Assembly: GCF_006715305.1 (NCBI RefSeq)
Contig: NZ_VFMY01000001.1
Coordinates: 1,984,001 to 2,048,000 of the forward strand
Direction of reading: 5' to 3'
Origin: Arthrobacter sp. SLBN-100
GTDB taxonomy: Bacteria; Actinomycetota; Actinomycetes; Actinomycetales; Micrococcaceae
Length of the DNA stretch: 64,000 bases
Under the pieces are notes generated by a model. It worked only from the letters and a program-made list of their open reading frames with translations, was not told the origin of the DNA and did not search any database. Below are positions 4,100-31,673 of this stretch, piece after piece (the first letter of the stretch is position 1; each line of letters begins with the position of its first letter). A program made the translations under genes and the position numbers.

Positions 4100-4103
4100 A
4101 AAG

Positions 4104-4150
4104 GCGCTCTCTCACTTTTCGCAGCTTTTTTCACAACGCTCTCTCACTCA
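4104..4150. repeat. Half copy of GACGCTCTCTCAC repeat
   Basis: Two direct copies of the CGCTCTCTCACT unit, at 4105-4116 and 4137-4148, about 32 bases apart and separated by T-rich sequence. This equals the left half of the large palindrome at 31571-31673. It lies between the ATPase stop and the DUF6153 gene. A role in transcript processing or termination is possible but not shown. Confidence 0.7.
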
Positions 4151-5247: not shown

Positions 5248-5260
5248 CTTCCCTCTAAAG

Positions 5261-5270
5261 GACGCTCTCT
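5261..5270. repeat. Left fragment of repeat split by the IS element
   Basis: GACGCTCTCT abuts the IS110 end. The continuation CACTTATGGC lies at 6853-6862, on the far side of the element. Joined, they give GACGCTCTCTCACTTATGGC, which matches the outer arm of the palindrome whose right side ends at 6946. This is evidence of insertion into a pre-existing palindrome with a shared CT dinucleotide. Confidence 0.7.
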
Positions 5271-5317
5271 GACATGAAAATTGGGTGACGACGGTGGGGT
5301 GCGTGGGGTGATCGGTA

Positions 5318-6562
5318 TTATCCGGGCTGGTGTAGGGGTTCGAGGATGACTTGGTAGCCCAGTGACTCGAGTTGCCCGATGGCGCGGGCTTTGGCTTTGG
5401 CTGGTGCCTGACGGGTGAAGTAGTCGGCGCCGAGGTCGTTGTAGAGTTCGCCGGTTGTGAGCATGTGCCAAGCTGCGGTGAGGATGGAGTGTTCGACGGC
5501 GACGAGGGCTTTGGCGGGTCCGCGGCGGGAGGCGATGCGCCGGTATCTGGCGCCGAAGTAGGTATTCTTCGATCTCGCGCAGGACAGAGCAGCGATGCCC
5601 AGGGCGCCTTTGAGGTACCGGTTGCCGGGCCGTGTTTTGGTGGACTTGATCCGTCCGGCGGATTCGTTGGATCCCGGGGAGGTACCGGCCCAGGATGCCA
5701 GGTGCCCTGCGGTGGCGAACACGCTCATGTCGGCGCCGGTTTCGGCGATGAAGACCTCCGCGACGGTGGTGCTGAACCCCGGGATGCTCACGAGGAGCTC
5801 CCGGGCGCAACGAAAGGGCTCCATCGCCGCCTCGATCCTGGCACTGAGGTCGTTGATGTCGGCGGTATGAGCGTCAATCCGGTGCAGATACAGTTCGGTC
5901 ATGTAGCGGTGGTGTTCGCTGAACCGCCCGCTGAGTGCTTGGGTGAGTTCAGGGATCTTGGATCGCAGCCTGCCCTGGGCCATCTCCGCCAGGGCCGCCG
6001 GGTCGGTCTGCCCGTCGACGAGTGCTTGGAGCATCAGGCGTCCGGAGACCCCGGTGATGTTCGAAGCTACCGAGGATAGTTTGATGCAGGCGTCCTCGAG
6101 GAGTTTCTCCAGGCGCTGGATCTCCCGGGTCCGTTCCTGGGTGATGATGGTCCGGGCCCGGGTCAGATCCCGCAGTTCACGGATTGGCGGCGGGGGCACG
6201 AAGGAGGCCCGGACCAGCCCGTGGGCGCCCAGATCGGCCAGCCACGCAGCGTCGGAAACGTCCGTTTTGCGGCCCGGGACGTTCCTGGCGTCATGGGCGT
6301 TGACCATGATGATGTTCAGCCCGTCGTCTTCAAGCAGGTAGTAGAAGGGGCGCCAGTAATCACCGGTGGCTTCAATGACCACCAGATCCACGTGCTCGTC
6401 CAGCAGGTGTTCCTTCAGCCCCAGGATCTGCCCGGTCATCGAACCCCAGGTCGTGACCGTGGATGTGGTGGACCGCCCGCCACGGCCCTGGATGCGGACA
6501 CAGACCTTCGCGTCCTTCTTTGAAATATCGACACCCGCACAGCGCGGGTGAATGACCTCCAT
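5318..6562 (-). CDS. IS110-family transposase (DEDD recombinase)
   Basis: A 414-residue recombinase, full length for the family. The N-terminal RuvC-like DEDD domain shows GVDISKKD, then VVIEATGDYW, then GRKTDVSDAAWLADL, giving the acidic residues. A coiled central part follows (TQERTREIQRLEKLLED). The C-terminal transposase_20 domain contains ASWAGTSPGSNESAGR, whose serine is the expected nucleophile. IS110 enzymes use a bridge RNA to pair target and donor DNA. No frameshift or internal stop is seen, so the copy looks intact and possibly active. Confidence 0.95.
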   Translation of the reverse strand: MEVIHPRCAGVDISKKDAKVCVRIQGRGGRSTTSTVTTWGSMTGQILGLKEHLLDEHVDLVVIEATGDYWRPFYYLLEDDGLNIIMVNAHDARNVPGRKTDVSDAAWLADLGAHGLVRASFVPPPPIRELRDLTRARTIITQERTREIQRLEKLLEDACIKLSSVASNITGVSGRLMLQALVDGQTDPAALAEMAQGRLRSKIPELTQALSGRFSEHHRYMTELYLHRIDAHTADINDLSARIEAAMEPFRCARELLVSIPGFSTTVAEVFIAETGADMSVFATAGHLASWAGTSPGSNESAGRIKSTKTRPGNRYLKGALGIAALSCARSKNTYFGARYRRIASRRGPAKALVAVEHSILTAAWHMLTTGELYNDLGADYFTRQAPAKAKARAIGQLESLGYQVILEPLHQPG

Positions 6563-6594
6563 AACAGATCACCCTTCCTCGAACGCTTCCAACA

Positions 6595-6790
6595 GATCGC
6601 GTCTGTGTCCCGGGGAAGGCGGATAAACAACAAATCTGACATTCGTGCTCAACGGCAACATTCCACGGTCCCGCGGACAAAAAGCTGTGCCCTCCACCAC
6701 CAAACTCACTTACAGGCTCACCGGCACTAAAGAGAGACCGAGGTCGACCGGAACACACTCTCCAGTCTGCTCCGGCAGCCCAGACCCCGC
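6595..6790 (-). ncRNA. Candidate IS110 bridge RNA
   Basis: Noncoding upstream end of the element, read on the minus strand. From 5' to 3': a short hairpin at about 6764-6784 (GUCUG/CAGAC). Then a loop region carrying UAAGUGAG (plus-strand AAACTCACTTA at 6702-6712), identical over 11 bases to the IS/target junction at 6848-6858. Then AUGUCAGA (plus-strand TCTGACAT at 6635-6642), identical over 8 bases to the other junction at 5268-5275. A GUGCC/GGCAC stem (6723-6727 with 6687-6691) encloses the first guide. The order of target loop then donor loop matches the IS621-type bridge RNA. The right-hand guides are not clear; GCUUU (6681-6685) could pair with AGAGC using one G-U pair. RNA ends are approximate. 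Confidence 0.6.
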
Positions 6791-6850
6791 AACGATCACC
6801 GCTGCAACACATTTTCAGTCCCCACGGCGGAGCGAAGCGCCCCTGAGAAA

Positions 6851-6946
6851 CTCACTTATGGCAACTAATAGGTCGACGCTCTCTCACTCTCCTTAGGAAA
6901 GTGAGAGAGCGTCGGCCGGAAAACCGCCTTATGTGAGAGAGCGTCC
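6851..6946. repeat. Palindromic GACGCTCTCTCAC element interrupted by IS110
   Basis: A perfect inverted repeat of 14 bases, GACGCTCTCTCACT at 6875-6888 and AGTGAGAGAGCGTC at 6900-6913, with an 11-base loop. A further right copy, GTGAGAGAGCGTCC, lies at 6933-6946. The matching outer left copy is split by the IS element (GACGCTCTCT at 5261-5270 plus CACTTATGGC from 6853). The whole has the same nested four-copy design as 31571-31673. Confidence 0.8.
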
Positions 6947-8191: not shown

Positions 8192-8214
8192 ATCATCGGG
8201 CTTCCTTACCCTCA

Positions 8215-8295
8215 GGTGATAGAGCGTCCTGAGGAAACGTGCGAAAGGTGATGGGGCGTTGCCGGGAAACGTGCGAAAGGTGAGAGAGCGTGCGG
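8215..8295. repeat. Degenerate copies of the GTGAGAGAGCGT repeat
   Basis: Three related units, GGTGATAGAGCGTCC (8215), GGTGATGGGGCGTT (8247) and GGTGAGAGAGCGTGCGG (8279), are spaced 32 bases apart. A 19-base direct repeat GGAAACGTGCGAAAGGTGA occurs at 8233-8251 and 8265-8283. This is the right-half version of the element at 31571-31673, in the promoter region of the monooxygenase and before the phosphatase. Confidence 0.7.
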
Positions 8296-14412: not shown

Positions 14413-14522
14413 GTCCGGATTCCTGCGGAAGGTGAGAGAGCGTCCGGGGGTGGGCGGGGCCGAGTTCTCGTCCGGTAGCGAAACGGCCGTCCATTGTCGG
14501 GCCGGGTCTATATATTGAAACC

Positions 14523-31570: not shown

Positions 31571-31673
31571 GACGCTCTCTCACTTAACGCGCCCCAACCG
31601 GAAACGCTCTCTCACTCTCGTCAGGAGAGTGAGAGAGCGTTAGGGAAAAATGCGCGCTAAGTGAGAGGGCGTC
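31571..31673. repeat. Large nested palindrome of four GACGCTCTCTCAC units
   Basis: Four copies in mirrored order. Outer arms 31571-31592 and 31652-31673 match at about 20 of 22 positions. Inner arms AACGCTCTCTCACTCTC (31603-31619) and GAGAGTGAGAGAGCGTT (31625-31641) are perfect, with a 5-base loop. Length is 103 bases with no coding frame. Related full or partial copies lie at 4104, 5261/6851, 8215 and 14431. It lies just downstream of paaZ and upstream of the VOC gene. Confidence 0.9.

Follow-up and report, generated by a model that had tools for sequence, protein, structure and literature searches.

The window, by which we mean the whole analysed stretch of 64,000 nucleotides from the soil actinobacterium Arthrobacter sp. 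SLBN-100, carries an IS110-family insertion sequence that interrupts a palindromic repeat, found across the genus, at its CT core (Table 1). The length of the element, 1582 bp, was read from its junctions in the window, and the ends are conserved in relatives. Excision of 5271-6852 joins GGACGCTCTCT to CACTTATGGC and restores a complete repeat arm; this rejoining and the shared CT core had been proposed in an earlier, sequence-only reading of this DNA, and reading of the junctions confirmed both. The only bases duplicated at insertion are CT (5269-5270 and 6851-6852), that is, AG on the transposase strand, where the left junction reads GCCATAAGTG-AG-TTTCTC and the right junction TTTTCATGTC-AG-AGAGCGTCC. 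The element thus shows the insertion at a short shared core, with no further target duplication, that marks the IS110 family. It also encodes the transposase expected of this family, with a DEDD RuvC-like domain and a serine-bearing PF02371 domain, and residues D12, E64, D101, D104 and S301 of this protein align with the catalytic residues of IS621 (residue numbers from PMC11208158; this paper, PMC11208160 and PMC11187229 are all cited here from the accessible part of their text). The two noncoding ends differ in length, with 290 bases upstream of the transposase (6563-6852) and 47 downstream (5271-5317). In a search at E 0.001 the element was the sole match in its 4.94 Mb genome, and megablast with the element gave no match in phages.

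Table 1. Features of the element and of its insertion site (positions in the window).
Feature	Position	Strand	Basis or remark
Whole element, ISArsp3-like IS110	5271..6852	(-)	One core copy included; LE at 6852, RE at 5271
DEDD/serine recombinase (transposase), 414 aa	5318..6562	(-)	PF01548 and PF02371, both over cut-off
Predicted bridge RNA region	6598..6774	(-), assumed to be the transposase's strand	Own covariance model R1, 144 bits
Putative 5' target guide, CTCT-CT	6731..6736	(-)	Complement of right target AGAG and core
Putative 3' target guide, TAAGTG-AG, with two donor bases TT (handshake-like)	6703..6712	(-)	
Putative donor guide, ATGTC-AG	6636..6642	(-)	Equal to element right end
LE copy of subterminal inverted repeat, TGAAAAT (element strand)	6811..6817	(-)	In step with RE copy
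RE copy of subterminal inverted repeat, ATTTTCA (element strand)	5275..5281	(-)	Overlaps donor sequence
Left piece of interrupted repeat arm, GGACGCTCT-CT	5260..5270	(+)	Junction reading
Remainder of interrupted repeat array: CACTTATGGC, palindrome 6875-6913, outer arm 6933-6945	6853..6946	(+)	

The interrupted repeat is made of GACGCTCTCTCACTT units, which at several loci are arrayed as direct repeats, spaced by about 32-33 bases, on one side of a palindrome and are mirrored on its far side. The exact 13-mer GACGCTCTCTCAC has 26 copies in the genome, compared to 0 for the reversed control, and with at most two mismatches it was found 13 times in the window (2.2 expected). The sequence read as guide target, AAGTGAGAGAG, is present in 39 exact contiguous copies in the genome (1 for the reversed control). 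Across the genus, AAGTGAGAGAGCG occurs in 67 of 121 genomes, with a maximum of 122 copies in one of them and 35 in the host genome. Further members of this CTCTCAC repeat family lie in the window at 4103-4147, 6875-6945, 8214-8291, 14430-14444 and 31571-31673. The sequence-only reading had likened the target to the REP palindromes used by IS621; the likeness holds for a dispersed palindromic repeat, but not for a REP/RAYT pair, which we rejected for the host genome since no PF01797 (Y1_Tnp) match, and hence no RAYT gene, was found there at E 0.001 (the control search detected Y1_Tnp in 5 of 14 genomes). For this reason we do not name the repeat REP. A search of the literature on the CTCTCAC repeat returned nothing that we recognised as relevant among the matches listed.

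A long noncoding end with a predicted RNA upstream of the transposase, as characterizes the IS110 group, was found in the element. The covariance-model search proposed by the sequence-only reading had a divided outcome: Rfam 15 at gathering thresholds gave no match in the window, whereas our own model R1 found one site (Table 1), in a match that is not independent because R1 was trained on 23 RNAs of relatives, including a close relative of the window element. In the consensus of these 23 RNAs, 8 of the 28 pairs persist although both of their bases have changed, and six of these 8 belong to the outer stem. Stems were obtained from RNA sets of 10, 14, 7 and 23 sequences; the joint consensus fold of 42 diverse RNAs was weak, and the fold of the single sequence 6563-6850 was no better than those of shuffles (z -0.77). 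Read 5' to 3' on the transposase strand, the predicted RNA would present the complement of the right target with the complement of the core, then the left target, the core and two donor bases, and then the donor guide for the right end. Two of these segments had already been noticed: AAACTCACTTA at 6702-6712 is indeed identical to the right junction (6848-6858), and TCTGACAT at 6635-6642 to the left junction (5268-5275). The 11 bases of AAACTCACTTA had been taken as a target-like guide; they do match the target, but are composed of target, core and donor bases. The 5' target guide at 6731-6736 had been missed. Taken together, the upstream noncoding end very probably includes a structured RNA region in which both target and donor have guides.

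Guides and flanks were compared in loci drawn from a genome collection (80 kept of 126 relatives), plasmid matches, a genus search (some match in 93 of 206 genomes) and excised regions. The upstream RNA was located in 121 loci, a number that counts duplicates shared by two collections. To place the element starts we used a position matrix on the element's own sequence, and to place the guides a conserved RNA anchor. Thirteen of 123 records were dropped because the guide pattern was absent, and 92 of 110 loci passed the boundary/distance rule (18 dropped, L043 and L044 among them), giving 71 unique combinations and 39 unique guides; L046, L048 and L052 were kept by the rule although their boundaries looked wrong by eye. 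Over the 71 unique pairs the guides matched 4.75 of the 6 left-target bases, compared to 2.34 +/- 0.14 after shuffling (maximum 2.80 in 5000 shuffles), and with one row per guide (n=39) the values were 4.69 and 2.09 +/- 0.18. These shuffles remove relatedness incompletely, and the left-guide pattern was first seen in a subset of the tested loci. Positions LT-5 to LT-1 of the left target were matched in 85-94% of the unique pairs, whereas LT-6, although matched in the window element, was matched in only 32%; the first core base is nearly constant and thus carries no information in this test. When the shuffling was confined to donor-base classes, the five left bases still scored 4.42 of 5, compared to 2.56 +/- 0.15 (71 pairs). 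The match was complete (5/5) in 46 of the 71 pairs, at least 4/5 in 63, and below 4/5 in the other 8.

In a column scan, target and donor positions were tested against the RNA columns that run from -75 to +104 relative to the guide, the right ends being found without the RNA. The right-end pattern was missing from 18 of the 92 loci, which were dropped, and 17 of the remaining 74 had more than one candidate, the first of which was taken; 58 unique elements resulted. The five top target signals were LT-5 to LT-1 at RNA columns +1 to +5 (z 6.7-9.7). Column -18 appeared as the complement of LT-1 (z 5.9), a signal that we read as pairing of both arms in the free RNA. A search of the order with R1 yielded 15 new loci, with a match in 11 of 297 genomes, host included. 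Nine new elements were scored by eye, their boundaries being read with the guide in view, and the left match was 5/5 in seven (L185-L190, L195) and 4/5 in two (L192, L196); L193 and L194 were unreadable. Four identical copies from one genome, G443 (L191, L197-L199), share TCTGAG with their RNA and were left uncounted, as no empty site separates target from element. The left target was also matched in a second IS110 clade with 46-50% protein identity and a clearly different RNA (5.14/6, compared to 2.56 +/- 0.33 shuffled; 14 unique pairs from 18 loci, L092 being unreadable). The RNA of this clade (L089-L107) likewise writes left target, core and donor bases (AGC). Covariation of target guides with natural targets, the property expected of a bridge RNA, was thus found, and the question posed by the sequence-only reading, whether guide covaries with target, was answered positively in the 71 pairs and in the later loci.

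The signal for the right-target guide was weak beside that for the left. Of the four positions RT+1 to RT+4, 2.33 were matched on average, compared to 1.29 +/- 0.11 after shuffling and 1.46 +/- 0.12 after shuffling within donor-base classes (n=55; 3 of the 58 elements were dropped for lack of a 5' guide ending in the core complement, a rule that itself uses the core). With wobble counted, at least 3 of the 4 bases were matched in 35 of the 55 elements and none in 6. The margin became small with one row per 5' guide (n=29), where 2.24 was observed against 1.70 +/- 0.15 and a shuffle maximum of 2.21. In the column scan, RT+1 and RT+2 appeared as complements at RNA -21 and -22 (z 5.2 and 4.5); a fixed-offset scan for the right target placed -26, -23 and -32 on top (z 4.9, 4.5 and 4.0), the best offset 3' of the left guide having z 2.6. 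One relative, L125, has a changed core: both junctions read AA, as do the 3' target guide and the donor guide, and the 5' target guide reads TT. In L043 and L044, which lie outside the counted rows, the RNA by eye contains AA and TT, and the left end has AA. In L143 and L085 the core guide differs from the core.

On the donor side, the right-end (RE) half is the one matched by the donor guide. In the column scan, LD-5, -4, -2 and -1 covaried with RNA +70, +71, +73 and +74 (58 unique elements); LD-3 was not prominent because GTATT ends are often paired with GTGTT guides, a combination that may represent a G-T wobble. TCTGACAT begins with a T (A on the RNA strand) that does not vary among the closest relatives, even where their targets differ, and that therefore need not be derived from the target. 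RD+1 and RD+2 matched RNA +8 and +9 in the scan, and were matched in 97% and 93% of the 71 unique pairs; of the three T that follow the core in AAACTCACTTA, two stand at these positions covarying with the donor end. No convincing column was found in the scan of the 58 unique elements for a guide to the LE donor half (the reverse complement of the LE start), and the other high donor z-scores probably belong to columns that merely mark clades or shared ancestry. The two ends also share a subterminal inverted word, which changes in step between them: its mean length is 6.9 nt, compared to 4.8 after shuffling and 3.7 in the reversed control (n=58). The length ranges from 0 to 13 and is 7 in the window element; the word is absent from L141 and no longer than expected by chance in a few rows. 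In most rows the word lies about 34-40 nt from the core in LE.

The guide TAAGTG of the window element is found in fourteen loci, which represent six distinct sites. Five are in the repeat (L112, which is the window element; L113; L029, identical to L114; L116; and L171, an interrupted copy whose right flank was taken from L118). The sixth, CTGAAGTG-AG-AGGGG, is known from plasmids and was seen in eight loci (L028, L108-L111, L115, L117 and L142), one of which, L109, has a right flank that differs further out. The expectation that copies would sit in the repeat thus held at five of these six sites, that of the window element included; the sixth is outside the repeat, with the left guide still matched 5/5. 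In the close copy L171 (genome G029), other DNA of about 1.4 kb separates the two parts (718242-719291 and 720694-721234). The plasmid site is that of ISArsp3, from a plasmid of Arthrobacter sp. FB24 and from three other plasmids, which is 92.8-92.9% identical in DNA to the window element over 88% of the query and has the same ends and the same left-target guide; its plasmid copies lie outside the repeat, whereas L116, from the same genome set, is in it. Our literature search found no paper naming ISArsp3. By the naming rule, the name of another element, ISAar29, presumably points to an Arthrobacter origin. No named plasmid copy of ISAar29 turned up, and mention of it in the literature was found in one legend only. 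It is an IS110-family element whose predicted bridge RNA is one of six drawn in PMC11208160.

Relatives with other guides occupy other kinds of site. The joined site of L032 was matched in 105 of 204 genus genomes, and 12 uninterrupted copies of GGGGCTAG-AC[GAC]GGG were found in 9 of the 10 loci fetched. L032, L137 and L174-L183 show a dispersed repeat of about 100 bases, often with several copies 1-2 kb apart on a contig; Rfam at gathering thresholds gave no family near this repeat (4 loci). Three relatives (L146, L151, L152) sit at the end of another palindrome, of the GTTAACTGCGAGTCAGTTGG type, and related sites numbered 18 and 17 in two genomes, compared to 1 and 0 in controls (at most 3 mismatches, occupied junctions included). 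Sites of this type come in plus/minus pairs 45 bases apart and are targeted by guides such as TGAGTC. Left flanks resembling an IS110 right end, with a fitting guide, were seen in L135/L172, L037, L040, L041, L138/L147 and L156, which look like IS110 elements aimed at IS110 ends; L132 has a similar flank, with a guide match of only 2/6.

Could the matched flank be part of the element instead of the target, so that the match came by descent and has no bearing on guiding? The flank AAGTG is indeed common to copies that have the same RNA, as this reading would have it, but AAGTGAGAGAG is contiguous at the 39 places of the same genome noted above, and the L032 site, GGGGCTAG-AC[GAC]GGG, is likewise contiguous in the 12 copies counted above. 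An inherited flank is thus contradicted for two guide types, and we give it hardly any credence. It is only slightly more plausible, and still very improbable, that the repeat is chosen for its DNA shape, as a palindrome, with the guide merely refining the choice. L146, L151 and L152 do sit at another palindrome, and IS110 elements have been described, in the accessible text of PMC11208160, as inserting into REP elements; against this, the same RNA has used the plasmid site outside the repeat with its guide still matched, and relatives with other guides are found at other sequences that match those guides.

The alternative that retains most weight, though we regard it as unlikely, is that the guide order is the ordinary one of IS621 and that the swapped order seen here arose from misalignment or from a wrong choice of strand. 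It draws on the right-target signal, much weaker than the left, and on an RNA strand that was assumed to be that of the transposase. However, within RNA columns -75 to +104 the signals for RT+1 and RT+2 peak at -21/-22, on the 5' side of the left guide; the changed core of L125 is written TT by the 5' guide and AA by the 3' guide; and on the opposite strand the guides would begin with the core, which those of IS621 do not. We therefore hold it highly likely, from comparison of sequences, that the element is an IS110 member with an upstream-encoded bridge RNA whose arms are swapped relative to IS621. Covariation of guide with target and of guide with donor, conserved RNA stems, a target that is contiguous in uninterrupted repeats, and the preference for the repeat were all observed.

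In the mechanism that we propose, the upstream noncoding end would be transcribed, from the strand of the transposase, into a bridge RNA that the recombinase would bind. The first loop would carry the target guides and, adjoining the one for the left target, the two donor bases that directly follow the core; the second loop would read the right end of the element (ATGTC-AG). The recombinase would then join a circularised form of the element to the repeat at the shared two-base core, by a strand exchange in which this RNA would take part. The swap of the arms relative to IS621 amounts to an RNA that would read the opposite strand of both target and donor.

The sequence-only reading had recognised an IS110 element with guide-like segments in its upstream noncoding end, which the two Pfam domains and the covariation of guides with flanks bear out, and had drawn a parallel to IS621. 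With IS621 the element shares an RNA upstream of a DEDD/serine recombinase, a target loop before the donor loop (the order that had been proposed for the RNA strand), guides ending in the core, a two-base core, handshake-like bases and repeat targets. The parallel ends within the target loop, where the arms are opposite. In both loops of IS621 the left-target guide comes first and the right-target complement second (PMC11208160, PMC11208158), and ISEc21 has the same order, with the bottom-strand match first (PMC11187229). The window element has the right-target complement 5' of the left-target guide, so that the arms of its target loop appear swapped; in the donor loop the single arm identified lies on the 3' side, again opposite to IS621. 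Its two donor bases occupy the place of the IS621 handshake guide, which the accessible text of PMC11208158 puts 3' of the core complement in the 3' arm. The recombinases are distantly similar (phmmer E 1.6e-11), with 414 aa compared to the 328-residue chain of IS621.

As far as the accessible text of PMC11187229 describes them, IS1111 elements have the reverse guide order, an RNA that is usually downstream, and subterminal inverted repeats of 7-17 bp, with exceptions in RNA position in both the IS110 and the IS1111 groups, for which this text gives no guide order. With the IS1111 seekRNA elements of that paper, the window element shares a top-strand complement that comes first, and its inverted words may correspond to their subterminal inverted repeats. 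It differs from them in the upstream position of its RNA, in the distance of the inverted repeat from the core in LE (about 34-40 nt, whereas that of the published element is close, with a 7 bp extension), and in its 414 aa transposase, compared to 330-350 aa (PMC11187229). With ISEc21, an IS110-family element in the same source, it shares the upstream noncoding region and guides to both strands, but its guide order is reversed.

From these comparisons the element is very probably an RNA-guided inserter. Bridge RNA systems have been known since 2024; the variant here consists in the swapped guide order, together with an upstream RNA and putative coevolving inverted repeats. Among the matches listed in our literature search, which covered the text of openly accessible journal papers, no such variant was described. 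On balance we favour, with some reserve, a broader view in which the element represents a large, mainly actinobacterial branch of IS110 with a mirror-image bridge RNA, upstream-encoded and with the guide order of IS1111, in which the left guide would spell the product junction (target, core and two donor bases), the subterminal inverted repeats would coevolve, and members would have been repeatedly re-guided onto dispersed host repeats, which would serve as abundant landing sites, and onto the ends of other IS110 elements.

Research on bridge RNA recombinases looks to them as a means of inserting DNA at a selected site; the guide/target pairs from nature gathered here, dozens in number and including a core change and handshake-like bases, form a ready test set for their pairing rules. 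Guides sought by the order of IS621 would be misread in such a branch. Two guide orders have been published, one per group, in the accessible text of PMC11187229, and a branch whose RNA is placed as in one group, but whose guide order and inverted repeats are those of the other, would bear on how these groups are related. Among the Actinobacteria, the repeats described here are a concrete example of sequences on which apparently RNA-guided elements land.
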